From NCBI GenBank assembly GCA_003542295.1, contig DPKX01000221.1, forward strand, positions 1 through 13,098: a DNA stretch of 13,098 nt, read 5' to 3'. This document shows, in pieces, positions 714 through 11,999 of this stretch. This stretch comes from Candidatus Atribacter hydrocarboniphilus (lineage in GTDB: Bacteria; Atribacterota; Atribacteria; Atribacterales; Atribacteraceae). The stretch's first letter is position 1. Each line of letters opens with the position of its first letter. The position numbers and the translations under genes were made by a program. Below the pieces are notes generated by a model that searched no databases, had not been told where the DNA came from, and saw nothing but the letters and a program-made list of their open reading frames with translations.

Positions 714-1850
714 ATGAACAACCAAGAGACAGAGATACAACTTATTCAGATTACCAAGAAATTTGGTAATTTTACTGCGGTTCAAAATGTTAATTTAGAG
801 ATCCATCATGGAGAGTTTTTCTCTTTACTTGGACCTTCTGGCTGTGGTAAAACCACCACATTACGTATGATCGCCGGGCTAGAAGAACCCACTGAAGGAC
901 AAATTTGTTTAGCGGGAGAAGACGTTACTTATAAACCTGCGTATTTGCGCAACGTGAACACGGTCTTCCAGGATTATGCCCTTTTTCCCCATATGACTGT
1001 TGAAGAAAATATCTATTTCCCTTTGAAAATGAAAAAGGTGAAATATTCCAGTGCTCGGGCAATGATTGAAGAAGCTCTTTCTTTGGTAAACATGACCGGG
1101 TTTGGTAAACGTTATCCCCAACAGCTTTCGGGGGGACAACGTCAGCGAATCGCCTTGGCAAGGTCACTGGTCAATCGTCCCCGTGCACTATTGCTCGACG
1201 AACCCCTAGGAGCCTTAGATTTTAAACTCCGCATCGCTATGCAAAAAGTTCTAAAAGATATTCAAAAAAACGTTGATATTACCTTCATTTATGTAACTCA
1301 CGATCAAACTGAAGCAATCACCATGTCGGATCGAATCTGTGTCATGAAAGATGGAGTAATCCACCAAATTGGTACTCCTGATGAAATTTATAATTCTCCT
1401 GAGTCTACTTTTGTTGCCAGTTTTATTGGTGATATGAACTTTCTTGAAGGTCAAGTAGTCCAAAAAGGAGAAAATTCAGTCACTATCGATGTAGATGGCA
1501 AGCCGATTATCAGCACGCGTTTTGAGGGAACTTTTTCAAAAGGGGATTCAGTTGTTGCCTGCATTCGGCCGGAAAAAATATGCTTAGATAAAATGTGCGA
1601 TAGTGAGTTTCAGAATAAATTCGAAAATCATTTCCAAGCTTCAATCCATAGAATTGTTTTCCGGGGAACTGATTATGAAATCACCCTCAAATTTGGACAA
1701 TCTGAAATTCGCTTGATAGAAAGCGCTTCGGAATTTAATAATAAAAAAATAGGTGATCAACTATTTATCGGTTTTCAGAAAGATGATGTGATTACTTATT
1801 TAAAGGAATGTAAAAAGGTATGTGATTATGAAACCAACCTTGACAACTAA
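714..1850 (+). CDS. potA: Polyamine ABC transporter ATP-binding protein PotA
   Basis: This is the cytoplasmic ATPase that powers the PotBC permease. The ABC domain is complete: Walker A G40-P-S-G-C-G-K-T-T48, Q-loop Q86, signature L138-S-G-G-Q142, Walker B ending D162-E163 with E163 as the catalytic base, D-loop A167-L-D169 and switch H196. Residues from about 240 to 378 form the TOBE-type C-terminal regulatory region usual for this subfamily, and 378 aa is the normal length. The start at 714 has GAGG (703-706) at good spacing. The 3' end overlaps potB by 23 nt, which implies translational coupling. The closest alternatives are other importers of the PotA/FbpC/CysA group. The immediate PotB/PotC/PotD-like neighbours favour polyamines. 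Confidence 0.92.
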   Translation: MNNQETEIQLIQITKKFGNFTAVQNVNLEIHHGEFFSLLGPSGCGKTTTLRMIAGLEEPTEGQICLAGEDVTYKPAYLRNVNTVFQDYALFPHMTVEENIYFPLKMKKVKYSSARAMIEEALSLVNMTGFGKRYPQQLSGGQRQRIALARSLVNRPRALLLDEPLGALDFKLRIAMQKVLKDIQKNVDITFIYVTHDQTEAITMSDRICVMKDGVIHQIGTPDEIYNSPESTFVASFIGDMNFLEGQVVQKGENSVTIDVDGKPIISTRFEGTFSKGDSVVACIRPEKICLDKMCDSEFQNKFENHFQASIHRIVFRGTDYEITLKFGQSEIRLIESASEFNNKKIGDQLFIGFQKDDVITYLKECKKVCDYETNLDN

Positions 1851-2721
1851 ATTGAATGTAAAAGCAAGAGGGCGATCTTCTTTTGTTTCCAAAATCTGGA
1901 TAGGTGTCCCTATAACCACCTGGCTGTTTTTATTAATCATCATTCCAATCTGCATTATGCTGGTTACCAGCTTCTATACCAAAGAAGGTTCTGTGGTGAT
2001 TAAAAAAATTAGCTTGGCGAACTATTTAGAATTTTTTATAAACCCAATCTACCTTCCAATCTTCTTTCGAACCCTCATCTTAGCCCTTTTGGTGTCTCTT
2101 ACTTCAATTTTATTGGGATATCCTTTGGCTTATTTGGTTTCAAGAAAAGTAAAATGCTTTAGAAACCAACTCTATATGCTGGTCATTGTTCCTTTATGGG
2201 TAAGTTATCTGGTTCGGATCGTGGCCTGGCGAACTATATTAGGACGAGTTGGGGTCCTCAATACCATTCTCCTTTCTTTAAAAATTATCGATGAACCACT
2301 CTCTATCTTTATTTATAGTCCTTTTGCTGTTTATGTCGCTCTCATCTATATTGCCTTACCCTACGTATTTATTTCTATATTTAATTCTTTGGAAAAAATC
2401 CCCAAAAACCTTTTAGACGCTGCCGCTGACCTGGGCGCTAATAGCTTTCATACCTTTATTCATGTCATTCTTCCTCTTTCTATGCCAGGAGTAATCAGTG
2501 GTTTTACTCTTGCTTTTGTTATTGCTCTCGGTGATTATATTATTCCCCAGCAATTGGGAGGTTTGAATGGAATGATGTTTGGCAATCTCATTGTCACTCA
2601 GTTTGGTTATGCTTATAACTGGCCGTTAGGAGCAGCATTGGGCTTTATCATGTTTACAGTTGCAGTGGTTATCCTGCTGGTTTCACAAAAATTCGGCTCA
2701 TCAGAAGGATTCTTAGAATAA
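1828..2721 (+). CDS. potB: Polyamine ABC transporter permease PotB
   Basis: This is an inner-membrane permease subunit that pairs with PotC to form the translocation path. It has 297 residues and about six hydrophobic segments, the first at about 26-49 after a basic N-terminus. The cytoplasmic EAA loop, which docks on the ATPase, is visible at about 196-215 (A-A-A-D-L-G-A at 198-204, followed by the L-P-x-S-x-P-G element). I chose ATG 1828 because AAAAGG at 1813-1818 sits 9 nt upstream. The in-frame GTG at 1822 would add two residues but lies only 3 nt from that site. The gene overlaps the end of potA, and its stop shares one base with the potC start (TAATG). Confidence 0.92.
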   Translation: MKPTLTTKLNVKARGRSSFVSKIWIGVPITTWLFLLIIIPICIMLVTSFYTKEGSVVIKKISLANYLEFFINPIYLPIFFRTLILALLVSLTSILLGYPLAYLVSRKVKCFRNQLYMLVIVPLWVSYLVRIVAWRTILGRVGVLNTILLSLKIIDEPLSIFIYSPFAVYVALIYIALPYVFISIFNSLEKIPKNLLDAAADLGANSFHTFIHVILPLSMPGVISGFTLAFVIALGDYIIPQQLGGLNGMMFGNLIVTQFGYAYNWPLGAALGFIMFTVAVVILLVSQKFGSSEGFLE

Positions 2722-3536
2722 TGAACAAAACATCAACTTTAAAAAGAAAGGGTAAATCTTTTCCTTTTTTGGGGATATATGGAGCTTTCGTGTATTTTTA
2801 TCTCTATTTTCCTTTGTTGGTCGTTTTTGTTTATTCGCTCAACTCCTCTCGATCAACCATGAAGTTTGAAGGAGTAACTTTTGATTGGTATATAAGGCTC
2901 TTCCAAAACAAAGAACTATTAAACTCGCTCTTCCACTCCCTTCAAGTTTCAGGGTTGGCAGTTCTTTTTGCAGTAGTCGTAGGAACATCGGGGGCGCTTT
3001 TTCTCAACCGAATTGAATTTAAAGGAAAAGACTTTTTTCGTACGCTGGCTATGCTTCCAATCATCCTCCCTGGAATAATAGTTGGGCTTTCTTTATTGAT
3101 ATTTTTCCTCAACTTGAAGCTTCAGTTGTCAATGTGGACGGTCATCCTTGGGCATATTAGTTTTACCACCCCAGTCGTTATGTTTCAGGTTTTAGCTCGA
3201 TTAGCACGTCTTTCTAGAAATTTAGAAAATGCTGCCATGGATTTAGGCGCAAATCCATTTCAAGCTTTTATATATGTCACCTTTCCCATGATCAAAAGAG
3301 CAGTCATTGGGGGAGCGTTGCTGGCTTTTACTATGTCCTTTGATGAAATCATCATAACTTATTTCCTTACCAGTACCTTCAACACTCTTCCCATCTATCT
3401 TTACGGCATGCTTCGTTTTGGTCTTTCTCCCGAGGTTTATGCGATCTCGACGGTTGTGCTTGGTTTATCCATCTTATTAATAATACTTATGGCAAAATAT
3501 ACTGGAAGTAGTGAAGAAACAATTATCATCCGTTAA
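2721..3536 (+). CDS. potC: Polyamine ABC transporter permease PotC
   Basis: This is the second inner-membrane permease subunit, 271 residues and normal in length. A hydrophobic segment at about 18-40 is followed by several more. The EAA loop is at about 171-190 (A-A-M-D-L-G-A at 171-177). The next membrane segment contains 'S-F-D-E', typical of PotC/PotI-type subunits. The ATG overlaps the potB stop by one base, so the two are translationally coupled. The stop is 6 bp from the stop of the convergent RseC-family gene, and no terminator is visible between them, so convergent transcripts probably overlap here. Confidence 0.92.
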   Translation: MNKTSTLKRKGKSFPFLGIYGAFVYFYLYFPLLVVFVYSLNSSRSTMKFEGVTFDWYIRLFQNKELLNSLFHSLQVSGLAVLFAVVVGTSGALFLNRIEFKGKDFFRTLAMLPIILPGIIVGLSLLIFFLNLKLQLSMWTVILGHISFTTPVVMFQVLARLARLSRNLENAAMDLGANPFQAFIYVTFPMIKRAVIGGALLAFTMSFDEIIITYFLTSTFNTLPIYLYGMLRFGLSPEVYAISTVVLGLSILLIILMAKYTGSSEETIIIR

Positions 3537-4070: not shown

Positions 4071-4742
4071 TTAATGCTCTCCATTATTTAATAGACCACC
4101 GGCTTGGAAACTAAAATAAGTAGTTTTCCCAATAATAACATGATCCATTATCCGAATACCGATAATTTTTCCCGCTTCAACAAGTTTTTTGGTAACAGCT
4201 ATATCTTCACGGCTGGGTTGAATATTACCAGATGGATGATTATGAACACAAATAACCCCAGCAGCACGATCTGCAATGGCATCGGCAAACACTTCCCGAG
4301 GATGAACCAAGCTTTGGTTCAATGTTCCAATGAAAACCACTCTTTTTTGGATAAGTCGAGCGGCTCCGTCTAAAGTAATCGTAACAAAATACTCTTGCTT
4401 TTTCTCTTTTAAATCGCTTACCAATTTATAAACATCACTAGCATTTTGTATTTTTATGCCATCTTGAAATAAATATCTTTGAGAGAGCTCAAATGCAGCG
4501 AGAATTTGGCAAGCATGAGTTTTTCCTAACCCATTTATTCTCATCAGTGTCGTAAAGTTTAATTTTTCAAAATCATTTTCCACACACTCAAGAACTTCTT
4601 TAGAAAGCTGATACACATCTTTCGCCCGGGTCCCTTTTCCAAGAAGTACAGCAATGAGTTCAAGATTTGATAAAGCCTTGGGTCCTAATTTTTCTAGTTT
4701 TTCACGAGGTCGATCAAAATCGGGAAGTTCTTTAATTTTCAT
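4071..4742 (-). CDS. radC: RadC-family JAMM/MPN-domain protein
   Basis: This is a 223-residue RadC-like protein of normal length. The N-terminal half holds the family's 'D-R-P-R-E-K-L' start and a helix-hairpin-helix-like segment at about 66-83 (I69-N-G-L-G-K). The C-terminal half is the JAMM metal site: E117, then H167-x-H169 in 'H-N-H-P-S-G', then P176-S-x-x-D180. All ligands expected for a zinc-dependent MPN domain are present. The old link to DNA repair has weak experimental support, and the biochemical role is unsettled. The start at 4742 follows a short leader with GGAG about 11 nt upstream. A good promoter lies just beyond. RseC-family follows in the same direction. Confidence 0.9.
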   Translation of the reverse strand: MKIKELPDFDRPREKLEKLGPKALSNLELIAVLLGKGTRAKDVYQLSKEVLECVENDFEKLNFTTLMRINGLGKTHACQILAAFELSQRYLFQDGIKIQNASDVYKLVSDLKEKKQEYFVTITLDGAARLIQKRVVFIGTLNQSLVHPREVFADAIADRAAGVICVHNHPSGNIQPSREDIAVTKKLVEAGKIIGIRIMDHVIIGKTTYFSFQAGGLLNNGEH

Positions 4743-4778
4743 GTCATGATCTGCTCCATTTACTCATTTTTTAATTAT

Positions 4779-4807
4779 ATTATAGACAATATTCACCCGT
4801 TTCCCAA
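4779..4807 (-). promoter_or_regulatory. Promoter for radC-rseC
   Basis: Read on the minus strand, TTGGGA (4802-4807) and TATAAT (4779-4784) are separated by exactly 17 bp. The -10 matches consensus and the -35 matches at 4/6 positions. Transcription would begin near 4772, giving a leader of about 30 nt before the radC ATG. It stands back to back with the plus-strand promoter at 4817-4844, with 9 bp between the two -35 boxes. Confidence 0.55.
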
Positions 4808-4816
4808 CAGTCTTTC

Positions 4817-4844
4817 TTGACAACTTCAGTATAAAACTTATAAT
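4817..4844 (+). promoter_or_regulatory. Promoter for the sulfur-transfer gene cluster
   Basis: TTGACA (4817-4822) and TATAAT (4839-4844), both perfect consensus, are separated by 16 bp. The predicted start is near 4851, which gives an unusually long leader of about 310 nt before the ATG at 5160. A second TATAAT at 4856-4861 lies inside a duplicated 13-mer, but no good -35 box precedes it. Confidence 0.65.
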
Positions 4845-4867
4845 ATTAGTGTTTTTATAATATTAGT
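4838..4867 (+). repeat. 13-nt tandem direct repeat duplicating the -10 region
   Basis: TTATAATATTAGT occurs at 4838-4850 and again, identically, at 4855-4867, a period of 17 bp. Each copy contains a TATAAT. The spacing of nearly two helical turns could suit a dimeric DNA-binding protein, or the repeat may be a simple local duplication. It covers the predicted transcription start. Confidence 0.6.
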
Positions 4868-4888
4868 AACACCTATCCAGAGTGTCCA

Positions 4889-4921
4889 CGGGCATGATAA
4901 ATCAAGCCCCTCCAAAAGAAT
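4889..4921 (+). repeat. Dispersed palindromic repeat, copy 1
   Basis: This 33-nt unit matches 11967-11999 at 32 of 33 positions (the difference is at 4912). Its core is an imperfect hairpin: GGGCATGA (4890-4897), loop TAAA, TCAAGCCC (4902-4909), with one A-A mismatch present in both copies. A non-coding, short, hairpin-forming and repeated element resembles REP-type interspersed repeats. Confidence 0.7.
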
Positions 4922-4932
4922 ATAAAATTGTA

Positions 4933-4953
4933 GGGACACAATGTATTATGCCC
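4933..4953 (+). repeat. Degenerate palindromic repeat unit
   Basis: GGGACACAAT (4933-4942) and ATTATGCCC (4945-4953) can pair with one bulged A and one C-A mismatch. The unit begins with TGTAGGGACA, whose style (TGTAG + palindrome) resembles its neighbours in the array. It looks like a decayed member of a dispersed palindromic family, but no second copy is in this window. Confidence 0.4.
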
Positions 4954-4970
4954 ATTCTTTAACAATGTAG

Positions 4971-4990
4971 CGACATGCCATGGTATGTCG
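4971..4990 (+). repeat. 20-bp near-perfect palindrome
   Basis: CGACATGCCA followed by TGGTATGTCG forms a 20-bp palindrome with a single G-T mismatch, preceded by TGTAG like the unit before it. It is the third hairpin-capable unit in about 100 bp. A T-rich stretch (5000-5004) starts 10 nt after it, so a weak terminator effect is possible but not convincing. Confidence 0.55.
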
Positions 4991-5027
4991 AGTCTTGAGT
5001 TTTTATCCTTTCTGGTGTTGCTCTCTC

Positions 5028-5077
5028 ATTAAGGATGAAGGAATTTTTTATTTCATTTAAAGAAATCTTTCCTTAAT
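5028..5077 (+). repeat. Inverted repeat in the leader of the sulfur-transfer cluster
   Basis: ATTAAGGA (5028-5035) is the exact complement of TCCTTAAT (5070-5077). A short inner AAG/CTT pairing could extend the stem, with a large AT-rich loop. No T-tract follows on either strand, so it is not an ordinary terminator. It may be a leader structure or chance AT-rich complementarity. Confidence 0.35.
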
Positions 5078-5106
5078 CATAAGTTCCCTAATAGTTTTGA
5101 ATCAAC

Positions 5107-5137
5107 GAGCGTTTTATCAATTCGAATTAAAACGTTC
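5107..5137 (+). repeat. Stem-loop just upstream of the first ribosome site of the cluster
   Basis: GAGCGTTTTA (5107-5116) pairs with TAAAACGTTC (5128-5137) over 10 bp with one G-U pair and an 11-nt loop. It ends 9 nt before the GAGG ribosome site. It matches no riboswitch class I can recall. It could affect translation initiation or act as a weak attenuator, since the following TATCCTTTTG is U-rich. Confidence 0.4.
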
Positions 5138-5146
5138 TATCCTTTT

Positions 5147-5151
5147 GAGGT
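5147..5151 (+). promoter_or_regulatory. Ribosome site that fixes the first start of the cluster
   Basis: GAGGT lies 8 nt before ATG 5160. The longer reading frame opens with TTG at 5097, which has no Shine-Dalgarno site and would put the predicted stem-loop inside the coding region. ATG 5160 is therefore preferred. Confidence 0.75.
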
Positions 5152-5159
5152 GTTATTTT

Positions 5160-6209
5160 ATGATTAAAGCGGTTTCGTTATTTTCAGGAGGCCTTGATAG
5201 CTTACTTGCAACTCAAATCATTATGAATCAAGGTATCGAAGTCATTGCTGTTAACTTCATAAATCCCTTTGCCAATAATAAAAAAATGAAAGAAAAACAA
5301 TACTATGCCCGTACCATGTCTCAAAAAATGGGCATTGAATTGGTGGAAATAGAACTTAGAGAAAACTTTTTAGACCTTCTTCGAAACCCAAAATATGATT
5401 TTGGTAAAAATTTAAATCCATGTATCGATTGTAAAATTCTAATGATTACCCAAGCTCATGAAGTCATGAAGGAAAAAAAGGCTTCATTTATTGTAACTGG
5501 CGAGGTCCTCTCTCAGAGACCAAAATCTCAGTTCCTATGGGGGTTGAGTATCATTGACCGAGATTCTCATTTAAAAGGTTTAATTTTAAGGCCCCTTTCA
5601 GCGAAATTATTGCAAGAGACCATTCCAGAACAAAAAGGGTGGGTTGATCGGGATAAGCTATATAACTTTTCCGGCCGCATTCGTGGACCTCAATTTGCCT
5701 TAGCTCAAAAATTGGGAATCAATGATTATCCAGCCCCAGCCGGTGGATGTCTTCTCACCGATCCGATTTTTGCTCGAAGAGTTTATGACCTGCTTATCCA
5801 TGATGAACTGACTATGGAAAACATAGAACTTTTAAAATTAGGGAGATATTTCCGACTGAGTAACCGATTCAAGCTTTTAGTTGGTCGGAATGAAAAAGAT
5901 AATTTGGCATTACTCAGCCAAGCTAAACCAGAAGACTATGTTTTTACTCCTTCCCATACGAAGGGACCAACTGGCCTGGGAAAGGGAATAATCGACTTCT
6001 ATACTGAACAACTTGCTTCAGGCATTATTGCTTATTATTCTTCCTCTCTTATCGAACCACTTAATATCAAAATACAGCATCAAAGCTATTCATCACCAAA
6101 AATGGTTCAACCCATAACCTTATCACTGGATCAAATAGAAAAATACCGGATTGAAAATTTTCCTATTAAACTTATTCGCCAAAATACTCAAAAAACTCCT
6201 CAAAAATAA
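5160..6209 (+). CDS. PP-loop ATPase of the tRNA-thiolase type with C-terminal extension
   Basis: This 349-residue protein of the N-type ATP pyrophosphatase superfamily would be predicted to adenylate a substrate, probably tRNA, for sulfur insertion. The PP-loop S9-G-G-L-D-S14 is at the N-terminus. The pair C88-x2-C91 sits in an N-P-C-x-x-C-K context, and a third cysteine, C197, lies in 'P-A-G-G-C-L-L'. A C-x2-C plus distant C is the pattern of [4Fe-4S]-binding thiolases. Other conserved-looking blocks are T-G-E-V-L (113-117) and 'L-R-P-L-S-A-K-L-L' (143-151). The region from about 203 to 310 resembles the NFACT-R-like domain that I recall at the C-terminus of this ThiI/MnmA-like family, but no search could be run. 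Databases often label such proteins as thiouridylase- or ThiI-like. The exact product is unknown to me. The gene is first in a cluster with cysK, larE, mnmA and nadA. Confidence 0.75.
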   Translation: MIKAVSLFSGGLDSLLATQIIMNQGIEVIAVNFINPFANNKKMKEKQYYARTMSQKMGIELVEIELRENFLDLLRNPKYDFGKNLNPCIDCKILMITQAHEVMKEKKASFIVTGEVLSQRPKSQFLWGLSIIDRDSHLKGLILRPLSAKLLQETIPEQKGWVDRDKLYNFSGRIRGPQFALAQKLGINDYPAPAGGCLLTDPIFARRVYDLLIHDELTMENIELLKLGRYFRLSNRFKLLVGRNEKDNLALLSQAKPEDYVFTPSHTKGPTGLGKGIIDFYTEQLASGIIAYYSSSLIEPLNIKIQHQSYSSPKMVQPITLSLDQIEKYRIENFPIKLIRQNTQKTPQK

Positions 6210-6237
6210 CTTGTTCACCAATCTTATTCCAGAGTGA

Positions 6238-6250
6238 TACCATTATGGTA
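6238..6250. repeat. Perfect short inverted repeat before cysK
   Basis: TACCAT-T-ATGGTA (6238-6250) is a perfect 6+1+6 palindrome in the 72-bp gap between the PP-loop gene and cysK, about 30 nt before the cysK start. It could be an operator. It is short enough to be chance. Confidence 0.3.
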
Positions 6251-6270
6251 GATTATCCACTTGATGGAAA

Positions 6271-6275
6271 GGGAG
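6271..6275 (+). promoter_or_regulatory. Ribosome site that fixes the cysK start
   Basis: GGGAG lies 6 nt before ATG 6282. The upstream in-frame TTG 6261 and ATG 6264 would place this site inside the coding sequence and have none of their own. Confidence 0.75.
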
Positions 6276-6281
6276 AGTTAT

Positions 6282-7193
6282 ATGAAAATTGCCCAAAATA
6301 TTACTCAACTCATAGGAAATACTCCTTTAGTTCGTCTTTCTAAATTGGGTGCCTATCTCCCCGGGGAGGTAGTTGCCAAACTTGAATACTTAAACCCATG
6401 TGGAAGCGTGAAAGATCGTATTGGAGTATCAATGATAAACGAAGCTGAAAAAAATGGTTCTATAAGTAAAGATACCTTGATAATCGAACCAACCAGCGGG
6501 AATACTGGTATCGCCTTAGCTTTTGTCTGTGCTCAACGAGGATATAAATTAATACTCACCATGCCTGAAAGCGTATCCGTCGAAAGAAAAAAAATTCTTT
6601 CCTGGTTCGGGGCTAATCTAATCCTCACTCCTTCAGAAGAAGGAATGCAAGGATCAATCAAAAAAGCAGAAGAATTGGCAAAAGAGAAGGCTAATTCTTT
6701 TTTGCCAATGCAATTTAAAAATCCTGCTAATCCAAAAATTCATCGAGAAACAACCGCTGAAGAAATATGGACTGATACCGATGGGCTAATTGATATTTTG
6801 GTCTGTGGAGTAGGAACCGGAGGGACACTCACGGGAACTGCTGAAGTTTTAAAAGATCGGAAACCGTCCCTTAAGGTAGTTGCCGTTGAACCCAAAAAGT
6901 CAGCAGTATTATCAGGAGGAACCCCAGCTTCTCATCGTATCCAGGGAATTGGAGCCGGCTTCATCCCTGAAGTGTTACGTCGAGAATTGATTGATGAAGT
7001 CATTCCAGTTGAGGATGAAGACGCCTTTTCAACGGCAAAATGCATCGCTCAAATCGAAGGTATCCATGTTGGTATATCAAGCGGAGCAGCTGGTTGGGCG
7101 GCACTTCAATTGGCAAAACGAAAGGGAAATCAAGGGAAGTTGATTGTGGCTATTTTTCCTGACACTGGAGAACGATATTTATCAGTTTGGTAA
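6282..7193 (+). CDS. cysK: Cysteine synthase (O-acetylserine sulfhydrylase), PLP-dependent
   Basis: This cytoplasmic enzyme makes cysteine from O-acetylserine and sulfide, and at 303 residues it has the usual length. It has the N-terminal 'I-G-N-T-P-L-V' block (11-17), the PLP lysine K44 in N-P-C-G-S-V-K-D-R, the substrate loop T71-S-G-N-T75, the phosphate-binding loop G178-T-G-G-T182 and the C-terminal 'S-S-G-A-A' element. 'E-G-M-Q-G-S' at 120-125 also fits CysK. CysM or a cystathionine beta-synthase-like relative cannot be excluded by eye. In this cluster it can supply cysteine, or fix the sulfide that neighbouring thiolation enzymes may use. It lies 8 bp before larE and is probably co-transcribed with it. 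Confidence 0.88.
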
Positions 7194-7201
7194 AGAGATT
7201 C

Positions 7202-8029
7202 ATGGATAATATTATTAAAACTAAATTCGATAAATTACTACAAATTTTACATGACCTCAAGAATTGTTTGGTTGCCTATTCCGGTGGTATTGATAGTACT
7301 TTTTTGCTTTTTGCCAGTCATGAGGTATTGGGAGATAAAACCAGCGGGATTCTGATCGATACACTCTTTTTGCCAAAAAGTGAAAAATGCCTCGCTCTCA
7401 AGACCGCCAGCCAACTAAATCTTCCCTTAATAGTTCAAGAGATAAACCTTCTTCAATATTCTTCAATTATTCGAAATCAACCAAACCGTTGTTATTTTTG
7501 TAAAAAAATACTCTTTGAAACTATTCAAGAAGTAGCCAATCAGAAAAATTTTCAATTCATTACCGAAGGCTCAAATACCGATGACCTAAATGATTTTCGT
7601 CCGGGAATAAAAGCTATTCAAGAAATGGGAATTAAAAGCCCCTTGGTGGATGCAGGTTTTACCAAGGAAGAAATTCGTCAATTATCTAAAGAAAAGAACC
7701 TACCAACCTGGAATAAACCCTCGTTTTCTTGCTTAGCTACCCGCATTCCCTTTGGAACAACTATATCTTCTGAACATTTGGATCGAATCGAAAAAGCAGA
7801 ATTATTTCTTAACCAACTGGGTTTTGACCAATTTCGGGTAAGGGATCATTATCCAATTGCTCGAATTGAAATTCTCTTGTCCAATAAAAATTTTGCTCGA
7901 ATTCGTGACTATCGTCACCAAATCGTCGAAAGATTAAAATCCTTAGGATACCAAAGGGTTACATTAGACCTTGAGGGATATCGTTCTGGCAGTATGAATG
8001 AAGAACCTAAAATCAGGGAGTTAAAGTGA
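7202..8029 (+). CDS. larE: LarE-family ATP-dependent sulfur transferase, three-cysteine type
   Basis: This 275-residue PP-loop protein is similar to LarE, which adenylates and thiolates pyridinium-3,5-dicarboxylate during synthesis of the nickel-pincer cofactor of lactate racemase. The PP-loop is S27-G-G-I-D-S32. C97-x2-C100 lies in 'R-C-Y-F-C-K', and C177 lies in 'K-P-S-F-S-C-L-A-T-R', where Lactobacillus LarE has its sacrificial Cys176. LarE enzymes with this extra C-x2-C pair are known to bind a [4Fe-4S] cluster rather than giving up a cysteine sulfur. The 'R-P-G' motif (133-135) and T169-W-N-K-P are also typical. I chose ATG 7202 because TTG 7187 overlaps cysK and has no ribosome site; the one before 7202 (AAAGAGA) is weak. 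No larA, larB or larC is present here, so the substrate could differ. The stop overlaps the mnmA start. Confidence 0.85.
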   Translation: MDNIIKTKFDKLLQILHDLKNCLVAYSGGIDSTFLLFASHEVLGDKTSGILIDTLFLPKSEKCLALKTASQLNLPLIVQEINLLQYSSIIRNQPNRCYFCKKILFETIQEVANQKNFQFITEGSNTDDLNDFRPGIKAIQEMGIKSPLVDAGFTKEEIRQLSKEKNLPTWNKPSFSCLATRIPFGTTISSEHLDRIEKAELFLNQLGFDQFRVRDHYPIARIEILLSNKNFARIRDYRHQIVERLKSLGYQRVTLDLEGYRSGSMNEEPKIRELK

Positions 8030-9084
8030 AAACAAAAAAAATATTAATTGCTATGAGTGGAGGAGTCGATTCTTCGGTTGCTGCTTTCCTCTTAAAAAAA
8101 CAAGGATATCAAGTTTATGGGATTACTATGGCTTTTCAGGTAACTCACGGTTCTTCGAACGATCCACGTTTAGGATCAGCCTTAAACGATGCGAAAAGGG
8201 TATGTGAAATTCTTGAGATTCCTCATCAAACCCTTGAATTAAGCACTGAGTTTGAAAAGGAAGTCGTAAAGCCTTTTATAAAAGAATATTTATCAGGAAG
8301 AACTCCCAACCCGTGTGTAATCTGTAATCGGCAGATAAAATTTGGTTTTCTGTTTAATTATGCTATGAAAAATGGCTTTGACTTTTTTGCCACCGGACAT
8401 TATGCTCAAATTGACTTTATCAACAATCAATTTTTTTTAAGAAAACCTCGGGATCGTTCGAAAGATCAAACTTATTTTTTATACGGCATCCCCCGGGAAA
8501 CCCTCGATAGAATTCTTTTCCCATTGGCTCACCTTACCAAAGAAGAGGTTAAATCTCTTTCTGATCAACTCGATTTACAAATGGATGAAAAACCCGAGAG
8601 TCAGGATATTTGTTTTCTTCCTCAGGGAAGCTATCGTGATTTTATTAAAAACCGCTCTCATCTGGATCTATCAGGTCCGATCATTAACCTCCAAGGAGAA
8701 GTGCTTGGTCACCACGATGGAATATATCTATATACTATCGGCCAAAGAAAAGGGTTAGGACTCAGTAGTTCGCATCCTTTCTATGTTGTCGATATCGATC
8801 ATTCTCGAAATGCTGTAATAGTCGGTGAAAAAAAAGATTTATCAGCCATGGCTCTGGTTGCCACTCAAGTGAATTTCTTGGTCGATAGAATCCCTGACCA
8901 GGAAATTTTTGCTCTCATACGTTATTCCCAGAAAGAACACCAATGCACACTAGAAAAAATAAACCATGAAATAAAGGTCAATTTTTATAAAAAATTGGAA
9001 AATATAACCCCTGGTCAATCAGTTGTTTGGTACACTCGTGAAGGAATCGTAATCGGAGGAGGAACCATTAAGGAGGTTTTATGA
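8026..9084 (+). CDS. mnmA: tRNA-specific 2-thiouridylase MnmA, C-x-x-C type
   Basis: This enzyme inserts sulfur at C2 of wobble uridine 34 in tRNAs for Lys, Glu and Gln. It has 352 residues, the normal length. The PP-loop is S11-G-G-V-D-S16. The family's N-P-x-x-C-N-x-x-I-K-F motif is N95-P-C97-V-I-C100-N, so it carries two cysteines where E. coli MnmA has D-x-x-C. The second active-site cysteine is C196 in 'Q-D-I-C-F'. The K-D-Q-(T/S)-Y-F-L block is at 146-152, and the C-terminal beta-barrel region is present. The C-x-x-C form is associated with a [4Fe-4S]-dependent mechanism. The start is GTG 8026, which overlaps the larE stop as GTGA, with GGGAG (8016-8020) upstream. The stop overlaps nadA as ATGA. 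MnmA often lies beside a cysteine desulfurase gene, which is absent here. Confidence 0.93.
   Translation: MKTKKILIAMSGGVDSSVAAFLLKKQGYQVYGITMAFQVTHGSSNDPRLGSALNDAKRVCEILEIPHQTLELSTEFEKEVVKPFIKEYLSGRTPNPCVICNRQIKFGFLFNYAMKNGFDFFATGHYAQIDFINNQFFLRKPRDRSKDQTYFLYGIPRETLDRILFPLAHLTKEEVKSLSDQLDLQMDEKPESQDICFLPQGSYRDFIKNRSHLDLSGPIINLQGEVLGHHDGIYLYTIGQRKGLGLSSSHPFYVVDIDHSRNAVIVGEKKDLSAMALVATQVNFLVDRIPDQEIFALIRYSQKEHQCTLEKINHEIKVNFYKKLENITPGQSVVWYTREGIVIGGGTIKEVL
9071..9076 (+). promoter_or_regulatory. Strong ribosome site for nadA
   Basis: AGGAGG lies inside the end of mnmA. Two adjacent in-frame ATGs follow. The first (9081) is 4 nt away and the second (9084) is 7 nt away. The second has the better spacing, so the protein may begin with Met-Asn rather than Met-Met-Asn. 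Confidence 0.7.
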
Positions 9085-9995
9085 TGAATGCGGTCACCCA
9101 ACAAATTAAAGAATTAAAAAAAATGAAAAATGCGATTATTTTAGTTCATAACTATCAACCCCCTGACATACAGGATATAGCGGATTTTTTAGGGGATTCT
9201 TTGGGTTTGAGCATTGAAGCCAGCCGAACTAATGCCGATATAATCGTTTTTTGTGGTGTTCGTTTTATGGCAGAAACCGCCAAAATTCTCTCTCCGAATA
9301 AAGTTGTGCTCCTTCCTGAGAAAAATGCTGGTTGTCCTATGGCAGACACCATTACCGTACAAGAAGTTAAAAAGCTTAAATCAGAACATCCCAAAGCTAC
9401 GGTACTTGCCTATGTGAATACTACTGCAGATGTTAAGGCTGAATGTGACATTTGCTGTACATCGGCCAACGCCCTAAAGATTGTTACCGATGGATTAAAA
9501 GAAATTAAAGAAATTATTTTTATTCCTGATAAAAACTTAGCTAATTATGTTTCGAGAAAAACTGGGCGTCAATTTATTCTCTGGGACGGAGATTGTCCAA
9601 TTCATGCTCATATTCTTCCTGAACATATCCATTTTCAAAAAAAACTCCATCCCGATGCGTTAGTTGTTGTTCACCCTGAATGTCTTCCTGAAGTGATTGA
9701 TTTAGCTGATGAGGTTCAATCAACCGAAGGAATGTCCCGATTTATTGGTCAATCCAAAAATAGCGAATTTATCATTGGAACCGAGGTTGGCATTCTCTAT
9801 CGTCTTCGTAAAGAAAATCCTGAGAAAAATTTTTATCCCGCTTCAGCACGAGCCATCTGTTCCGATATGAAAAAAATAACCTTGGAAAAGGTTCTCTATT
9901 CTCTCCGTTTTGGTTACGGAGAGATTAACTTACCCGAGACAATTCGCCAGCGAGCCGAACGAAGCATTCAGCGTATGTTAGAGTATAAATCTTAA
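9081..9995 (+). CDS. nadA: Quinolinate synthase NadA ([4Fe-4S] enzyme)
   Basis: This enzyme condenses iminoaspartate with dihydroxyacetone phosphate to quinolinate, the precursor of NAD. It has 304 residues, the size of the short NadA form known from Thermotoga. The three cluster ligands are recognisable: C85 in 'A-G-C-P-M-A-D', C172 in 'W-D-G-D-C-P-I-H' and C260 in 'A-I-C-S-D-M'. H23 in 'H-N-Y', S40 in 'G-D-S-L', the S-A-N block (128-130) and H198-P-E-C are further active-site elements. ATG 9081 is taken as the start, but 9084 fits the ribosome site better. The overlap with mnmA (ATGA) indicates translational coupling. NadB or aspartate dehydrogenase and NadC are not in this window. The stop is 20 bp from the convergent cupin gene, and no terminator is visible in that gap. 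Confidence 0.94.
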   Translation: MMNAVTQQIKELKKMKNAIILVHNYQPPDIQDIADFLGDSLGLSIEASRTNADIIVFCGVRFMAETAKILSPNKVVLLPEKNAGCPMADTITVQEVKKLKSEHPKATVLAYVNTTADVKAECDICCTSANALKIVTDGLKEIKEIIFIPDKNLANYVSRKTGRQFILWDGDCPIHAHILPEHIHFQKKLHPDALVVVHPECLPEVIDLADEVQSTEGMSRFIGQSKNSEFIIGTEVGILYRLRKENPEKNFYPASARAICSDMKKITLEKVLYSLRFGYGEINLPETIRQRAERSIQRMLEYKS

Positions 9996-10015
9996 CTCGA
10001 ACTTATCTCTCATAA

Positions 10016-10375
10016 TCAAAGAACAATTTCATCTTCTTTTTTCCAGGCTGGATCAACAATACAAAGAAATACCAGATCTTGGCTCCCAGTGTTTTCAATG
10101 AACTGTATGGATTTAGGCGGAATGTAGATGGTCGAGCCTTCCTCCACCTGCTCGATTTGACTATTTATGTGCACAATCCCTTTGCCAGATAAAATATAAT
10201 ATACCTCAGATGAATAGAGATAATGAGGCTGAGATGCGCGCCCGGATGGAAGAGTAGCATGGGCAAGACTGTAATGGATTTCAATTCCTAATTTATCCGG
10301 ATGGAGTATTTCACGAAGTCTAGTTAAATCACCAGCTATGAATTCATCACAGTCTTCCAGTCTTCGGAGTAGCAT
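10016..10375 (-). CDS. Small single-domain cupin protein with altered metal-site residues
   Basis: This is a 119-residue protein of the cupin superfamily with no signal peptide. The first cupin motif is at 45-66 (G45, P50-H51, E57, then I-L-S-G-K-G), and the second is at 80-95 (G80, I-P-P at 85-87, N95). Of the usual ligands H-x-H, E and H, only H51 and E57 are seen. The second histidine position is L53, and the last histidine is replaced by Q91. The ending D-P-A-W is shared with a group of small bacterial cupins I recall with the same changes, so this is probably a family trait and not decay. No reaction or ligand can be assigned. AGGAGGA (10381-10387) supports the start. It follows cobQ after 19 bp, probably in one transcript. 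Confidence 0.75.
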   Translation of the reverse strand: MLLRRLEDCDEFIAGDLTRLREILHPDKLGIEIHYSLAHATLPSGRASQPHYLYSSEVYYILSGKGIVHINSQIEQVEEGSTIYIPPKSIQFIENTGSQDLVFLCIVDPAWKKEDEIVL

Positions 10376-11966: not shown

Positions 11967-11999
11967 CGGGCATGATAAATCAAGCCCCTACAAAAGAAT
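11967..11999 (+). repeat. Dispersed palindromic repeat, copy 2
   Basis: This copy is identical to 4889-4921 at 32 of 33 positions. The hairpin arms are 11968-11975 and 11980-11987 around TAAA, with the same A-A mismatch as copy 1. It lies in the 140-bp divergent gap between cobQ and the TolC-like gene. I saw no convincing promoter in either direction in the rest of this gap. Confidence 0.7.

Follow-up and report, generated by a model that had tools for sequence, protein, structure and literature searches.

Three different PP-loop ATPases, each carrying a CxxC motif and a distant third cysteine, are encoded in one gene cluster of a 13,098-nucleotide stretch of Candidatus Atribacter hydrocarboniphilus (its whole length is called the window here), which raises the question of whether the cluster is a dedicated iron-sulfur (Fe-S)-based operon for sulfur insertion, as the original prediction proposed. 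Sequences, homologous triads, conservation, neighbourhoods and gene distribution were obtained directly. The triads exist and are homologous, and there are good grounds for the Fe-S reading, yet this is the ordinary part of the answer; the part worth following up is a kept, probably twice-assembled gene set, together with the case for a 4-thiouridine (s4U) synthase of new architecture. As the best explanation of the whole, we consider it fairly probable that the window holds a tri-cysteine [4Fe-4S] PP-loop cassette with MnmA, LarE and an s4U-making PP-loop/NFACT-R protein, referred to below as the ThiI-like protein.

The cassette and its genes

The genes and the codons of the cysteines in question are as follows.

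5160..6209, + strand: ThiI-type PP-loop (SGGLDS) and NFACT-R_2 protein, 349 residues (Pfam/NCBIfam profiles, translation)
5421-5423, 5430-5432 and 5748-5750, + strand: C88, C91 and C197 of the ThiI-like gene (translation)
6282..7193, + strand: CysK, cysteine synthase A, 303 residues (TIGR01139, 442.6 bits, cut-off 350.95)
7202..8029, + strand: LarE, 275 residues (TIGR00268, 296.7 bits, cut-off 150)
7490-7492, 7499-7501 and 7730-7732, + strand: C97, C100 and C177 of the LarE gene (translation)
8026..9084, + strand: MnmA of the CxxC-C type, 352 residues (TIGR00420, 358.5 bits, cut-off 236.95; PRK00143, 399.5 bits, cut-off 284; 2der alignment)
8314-8316, 8323-8325 and 8611-8613, + strand: C97, C100 and C196 of the MnmA gene (translation)
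9081..9995, + strand: NadA, quinolinate synthase, 304 residues, with C85, C172 and C260 (TIGR00550, 359.1 bits, cut-off 262.9)

CysK, LarE, MnmA and NadA passed curated NCBIfam cut-offs, while the ThiI-like protein passed none; its nearest named records are metagenome-assembled genomes of Candidatus Atribacteria, with 88 and 87% identity. The five genes share one strand, with 72 and 8 bases between them at two junctions and 4-base overlaps at the other two, and no intergenic terminator-like site was found, an arrangement expected of an operon; the three terminator-like sites in 4700-10050, which are consensus matches only, are all on the opposite strand. The window is read as holding an operon-like, presumably co-transcribed cassette of three tri-cysteine PP-loop ATP pyrophosphatases with CysK and NadA. 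The predicted side-by-side placement of the three PP-loop enzymes held in so far as they share one cassette, but the CysK gene separates the ThiI-like gene from LarE. The host draft genome comprises 2.13 Mb in 307 contigs and is 87.6% complete.

Three homologous cysteine triads

Translation confirmed all nine cysteines at the residues originally assigned to them. C88, C91 and C197 are the sole cysteines of the ThiI-like protein, LarE additionally has C22 and C63, and MnmA has C60 and C307. In the ThiI-like alignment A1, the three positions were invariant in 53 of 53 rows, and the full triad was found in 80 of 82 ThiI-like frames, among which some genomes recur, the remaining two being contig-edge fragments. 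For LarE, 27 of 29 rows carried the full triad, with one contig-cut row and one 118-residue frame as exceptions. Among 34 MnmA rows, 32 carried it, and the MnmA proteins of L022 and L109 truly have no third cysteine. The survey for neighbourhood homologues without triad cysteines, which was to speak against the prediction, therefore did so in part, since these two MnmA genes lie beside a ThiI-like gene. In both (L109:186-1268 and L022:3006-4094), ESQDF stands where the third cysteine is expected, and a lone cysteine lies in a CYGPGE motif ahead of the CxxC; it is a possible alternative third ligand.

Profile-profile alignments were then used to relate the families, and gave probabilities of 98.0 for ThiI-like/LarE, 98.9 for ThiI-like/MnmA and 99.0 for LarE/MnmA. 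The CxxC registered with the CxxC in all three pairs, and C197 of the ThiI-like protein paired with LarE C177 and MnmA C196, while the LarE/MnmA alignment stopped just short of the third cysteine. To judge from these alignments, the three triads are homologous. Further, the window LarE aligned at all three cysteines with Methanococcus maripaludis LarE (8cnz), which was solved with a [4Fe-4S] cluster, and the window MnmA triad aligned with D99/C102/C199 of Escherichia coli MnmA (structure 2der). A tri-cysteine [4Fe-4S] cluster is reported to be required by Thermotoga maritima LarE (PMC9283937), and the CxxC-C MnmA of Thermus thermophilus is reported to have such a cluster and to be active only without oxygen (PMC8584467), so the expectation that triads of this kind hold [4Fe-4S] in LarE and MnmA relatives was borne out. 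Because the cysteine positions are homologous and match those of cluster-bearing relatives, a shared [4Fe-4S] chemistry is very likely in the three window proteins.

However, the triad by itself is unsurprising, as it is family-wide in most LarE and in C-type MnmA proteins; its presence in most LarE homologues has been reported (PMC9283937), and LarE copies inside the lar clusters of relatives also carry it. Finding it three times is therefore weak evidence for a dedicated operon, and what stands of that proposal is the homology of the triads and the conservation of the cassette. The real evidence for a functional grouping is the kept neighbourhood rather than the recurrence of the triad. Nor is the cassette a single pathway, because its products differ: two tRNA sites and one nickel cofactor. 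NadA, which had been counted as a fourth cluster enzyme at the operon end, has eight cysteines including C85, C172 and C260, and these three were kept in 15 of 15 relatives. NadA inserts no sulfur, so it belongs with the others as a tri-cysteine cluster enzyme but not as a sulfur insertase.

Conservation and probable second assembly of the cassette

The neighbourhood was compared by tblastn in 20 stretches of relatives. Seven of them (G002, G003, G005, G010, G011, G016 and G023; families f1, f2 and f3) kept the full order ThiI-like/CysK/LarE/MnmA/NadA. Where a genome had both the ThiI-like gene and MnmA (over the cut-off), the two lay within 5 kb of each other in 28 of 32 cases and on different contigs in the other four; of 26 genomes with LarE over the cut-off, 15 had it at such a distance from the ThiI-like gene.

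A second arrangement was found in L109 (family f7), with the order NadA/MnmA/LarE/ThiI-like/SufS-type desulfurase/FdhD/E1-like/Rrf2/CysK, where NadA is represented by its last 62 residues at the contig edge; L108 repeats this order from LarE onward. The desulfurase scored 471.1 against 475.1 for the SufS model, FdhD scored 207 against 140.9, and the E1-like protein was below its cut-offs. The genes of the desulfurase, FdhD, E1-like adenylyltransferase, Rrf2 and CysK (L109:3063-7465) mostly overlap, giving the look of a broad sulfur-transfer cluster. In a quick tree, the L108 and L109 ThiI-like proteins paired with a support of 100. Rather than joining either of the two Atribacterota cassette groups (supports 97 and 99), the pair sat close to archaeal and Geobacter sequences, in a group that was weakly drawn. 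As the same families stand in a different order with a ThiI-like protein from another branch, the five families were probably brought together twice in the phylum, and this probable double assembly speaks more strongly than anything else for a functional link, with the caveat that the L109 MnmA is one of the two that have no third cysteine.

An Rrf2 gene stood directly 5′ of the ThiI-like gene in 12 of the 20 stretches (f2, f3, f4 and f7) and directly before CysK in two further ones (f1), while the stretches from the window's genus yielded none. Of 34 Rrf2 hits in the alignment, among which genomes repeat, 33 had three cysteines where the L109 protein has them; the exception, L161, is contig-cut and not beside a ThiI-like gene. 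The L109 protein passed the Rrf2 superfamily model (138.5 vs. 73.3 bits) and failed that of IscR, TIGR02010 (125.6 vs. 207.55 bits).

Three counts weigh against a sulfur-insertion cassette: LarE was missing from it in four of the 20 stretches (G012, G013, G014 and G015), six others (f5 and f7) had ThiI-like/MnmA only, without LarE, and LarE lay within 5 kb of LarC in eight genomes. Besides, MnmA was missing in one stretch (G008), and in two (G006 and G007) ThiI-like/LarE were found with CysK about 3 kb off. The cassette CysK of G013 matched in three short overlapping pieces only (L081:3811-4260) and looks degraded. The rival that survives best builds on such losses, as LarE, MnmA and CysK each drop out in some relatives, and on the family-wide triad. 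It holds that 2-thiouridine at U34 (s2U34), a second tRNA thiolation, the nickel-pincer, nicotinamide adenine dinucleotide (NAD) and cysteine synthesis are ordinary neighbours that share a stable operon but neither sulfur delivery nor regulation, the triad being simply how each family looks in anaerobes. Against it stand the re-gathering of the same five families in L109 with a desulfurase and FdhD, the three-cysteine Rrf2 genes ahead of the ThiI-like gene, and the closeness of MnmA wherever both genes share a contig; we regard it as unlikely, though a serious contender.

The ThiI-like protein as a candidate 4-thiouridine synthase

The label "ThiI/MnmA-like" initially given to the first protein did not fit, as it is neither ThiI nor MnmA. 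In Pfam profile scans, its PP-loop started at residue 3 and NFACT-R_2 covered residues 228-330, while no THUMP match was found and the NFLD-THUMP ahead of the PP-loop was missing. The canonical ThiI model TIGR00342 failed with 56.5 bits against a cut-off of 264.5, covering model positions 174-312 only. The AlphaFold2 model was confident, with a mean pLDDT (predicted local distance difference test score) of 92.7. The CxxC and the third cysteine lie in the PP-loop domain, as expected of an s4U synthase like TtuI, and register with those of LarE and MnmA. Fusion of NFACT-R to ThiI-like domains has reportedly been predicted in print; among the open-access papers searched, no study of this PP-loop/NFACT-R family was recognised, which does not by itself prove it unpublished.

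The distribution of canonical ThiI was then compared with that of the ThiI-like protein. Canonical ThiI was over the cut-off in none of 41 genomes of Atribacterota. In the Bacillota sample (phylum of G052), it was found in 64 of 119 genomes. Among 17 candidate stretches there, the ThiI-like protein was confirmed in 14 genomes by hidden Markov model, C-terminal domain, CxxC and GGC; G257 and G328 proved to be MnmA and G273 was ambiguous. None of these 14 genomes had canonical ThiI, against 64 of the 105 others (Fisher p 7e-6; 1.6e-5 without the chosen centre G052), which may hide further ThiI-like genes as weak matches were not all listed. In the phylum of G057, a Desulfobacteraceae record (n = 148), NFACT-R_2 matches occurred in 133 genomes, some probably being other NFACT proteins, and canonical ThiI in six. 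Of the six, three had no NFACT-R_2 match, G087 had a weak one, and G127 and G146 had both genes, giving a Fisher p of 0.014 as listed and of 0.0012 with G087 scored as without the protein.

Neighbours of the ThiI-like gene outside the phylum (105 frames, 30 loci) included TudS (PF04463) three times, Thi4 three times, PALP (CysK type) twice and an MnmA domain twice; primase and diacylglycerol kinase also recurred. Each of the TudS frames immediately precedes the ThiI-like gene in the same orientation; they belong to L012 (Actinomycetota), L023 (Thermoanaerobacterales) and L020 (Syntrophomonadaceae), where the frame has 114 residues and its N-terminal part is missing. When all loci were searched, TudS was found in nine of 117 with the ThiI-like gene, many of which repeat a genome or have short flanks, and invariably in that same position. 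The nine loci represent eight genomes, six of which belong to the 14 Bacillota genomes above. TudS is described as a [4Fe-4S] desulfidase preferring 4-thio-uridine monophosphate (4-thio-UMP; PMC11417400; PMC10611767). Further, a study of the s4U-removing RudS reports two groups of organisms that keep RudS yet have no ThiI homologue of the kind searched for, and its authors suppose either that these organisms have ThiI homologues with another architecture or that they have no s4U (PMC11417400). The ThiI-like family fits the former supposition and the gap left by these organisms, and the protein is a good candidate for an s4U synthase of new architecture.

Several observations tell against an s4U product. 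G127 and G146 carry canonical ThiI and the ThiI-like protein, both confirmed; the Fisher tests ignore shared ancestry; no TudS turned up next to the ThiI-like gene in the Atribacterota stretches analysed; and a Thi4-family gene lies directly upstream in three archaeal records (L013:1349-2140, L014:2896-3693 and L018:1336-2121), so that the protein may instead act in thiazole synthesis. Tandem pairs of differing ThiI-like genes from different tree branches occur in L146 (G264) and L147 (G303). A second rival draws on the Thi4 neighbours, on the co-occurring canonical ThiI and on the tandem pairs, which suggest more than one role, and takes the protein for a sulfur insertase acting on another target, be it thiazole synthesis, a different position in tRNA or some other RNA. 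Given the near-exclusion between the ThiI-like protein and canonical ThiI and the TudS gene directly upstream in eight genomes, we rate this rival a little lower than the first.

Proposed mechanism

For an s4U-making cassette, we infer that the window proteins themselves carry clusters, that s4U is made and at which position, that the genes are co-transcribed, and how they are linked metabolically. Each PP-loop enzyme would adenylate an oxygen of its substrate, and a [4Fe-4S] cluster held by the three cysteines would carry, on its free iron, the sulfide that replaces the activated oxygen. MnmA would make 2-thiouridine at tRNA U34, and LarE the thiocarboxylates of the nickel-pincer nucleotide, with larB and larC on another contig. 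The PP-loop/NFACT-R protein would most likely make tRNA s4U, probably at position 8, taking the role of canonical ThiI, and NFACT-R would serve as the RNA-binding part instead of NFLD-THUMP. From known pathways, CysK in the cassette and NifS elsewhere may couple the enzymes to the pools of sulfide and cysteine, and NadA would provide the nicotinate precursor from which both NAD and the LarE substrate are made, feeding the LarB/LarE nucleotide.

In the host genome, LarB (298.6 bits, cut-off 175), LarC1 (194.4, 90) and LarC2 (141.1, 50) were found on another contig than the cassette. NifS (630.9 bits, cut-off 530.75) also lies on a contig other than the cassette's; NifU scored 362.3 bits (cut-off 273.3). 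The Lar_N-domain protein of the host was closest to a nickel-dependent hexonate epimerase model, below its cut-off (179.6 vs. 500). The cassette LarE is the sole LarE over the cut-off in the draft, so a second, specialised copy was dropped as an idea for the window.

With three tri-cysteine sulfur insertases for different substrates in one host, the cassette bears on the dispute between cluster and persulfide chemistry. That the cysteines act by persulfide and disulfide chemistry, which was the original proposal for E. coli MnmA, with any cluster adventitious, is improbable: the E. coli cluster is disputed and reconstitution is reported to load clusters non-specifically at times (PMC11784392), and a cluster plus persulfide was not excluded for T. 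maritima LarE (PMC9283937), but the window LarE matches every cysteine of the cluster-bearing 8cnz and the T. thermophilus enzyme works only without oxygen (PMC8584467). Taken jointly, a bolder proposal falls slightly short of an even chance in our estimate: that the PP-loop/NFACT-R family is the missing [4Fe-4S] s4U synthase of many anaerobes, with an RqcH-type RNA-binding domain for THUMP, and that in Atribacterota it sits in an Fe-S-regulated module, assembled at least twice, with one sulfur source for three insertases and NadA.

Other features of the window

Upstream of the cassette lies a promoter-like match:

4817..4844, + strand: promoter-like site TTGACA-16-TATAAT, 12/12 consensus match, about 315 bases 5′ of the first gene

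The scan gave 27 such matches against 15.1 expected, and a consensus match is no evidence of function. An Rfam scan of the window returned nothing at the gathering threshold and thus gives no support to a known riboswitch or T-box in the long leader. An identical 22-base intergenic repeat occurs at 4890-4911 and 11968-11989 (0 expected in shuffles), and once in the relative G003 (L069:2391-2412); L039 and L094 merely duplicate the window and are not independent occurrences. Genes resembling a polyamine-type ATP-binding cassette transporter (ATPase and two permeases; named by eye) lie at 714-3536, 5′ of rseC and radC.

Comparison with known systems

Canonical ThiI (2c5s, 4kr6) is the closest fold for the PP-loop part of the ThiI-like protein and its closest NCBIfam equivalog by score. 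However, canonical ThiI has NFLD-THUMP N-terminal to the PP-loop, whereas the window protein has a C-terminal NFACT-R_2 instead, and the CxxC is not known as part of the bacterial ThiI enzyme. TtuI, formerly called ThiI and described as a U8-tRNA sulfurase with a [4Fe-4S] cluster in M. maripaludis and Pyrococcus furiosus, has in common with the window protein the CxxC and distant cysteine in the PP-loop domain and, probably, the s4U product; TtuI belongs to the THUMP-containing ThiI family, while the window protein has the architecture given above.

LarE of T. maritima and M. maripaludis (8cnz) and the window LarE are of the same family over the cut-off with the same CxxC-C triad, but the window gene is grouped with the MnmA and ThiI-like genes, unlike LarE encoded with larB/larC. 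The window MnmA likewise shares family and CxxC-C triad with the C-type MnmA of T. thermophilus. The CC motif ahead of the CxxC, given as part of the C-type definition (PMC11784392), is missing from MnmA of the window and its genus and present in several relatives; Campylobacter and Helicobacter are reported to have C-type variants that lack it (PMC11784392).

The cassettes also resemble known couplings of sulfur-mobilising genes with their clients. In Bacillus subtilis, cysteine desulfurase genes are paired with ThiI, MnmA or NadA. Compared with these pairs, the window cassette has CysK and no desulfurase, while the L109 arrangement has one desulfurase with all these families.

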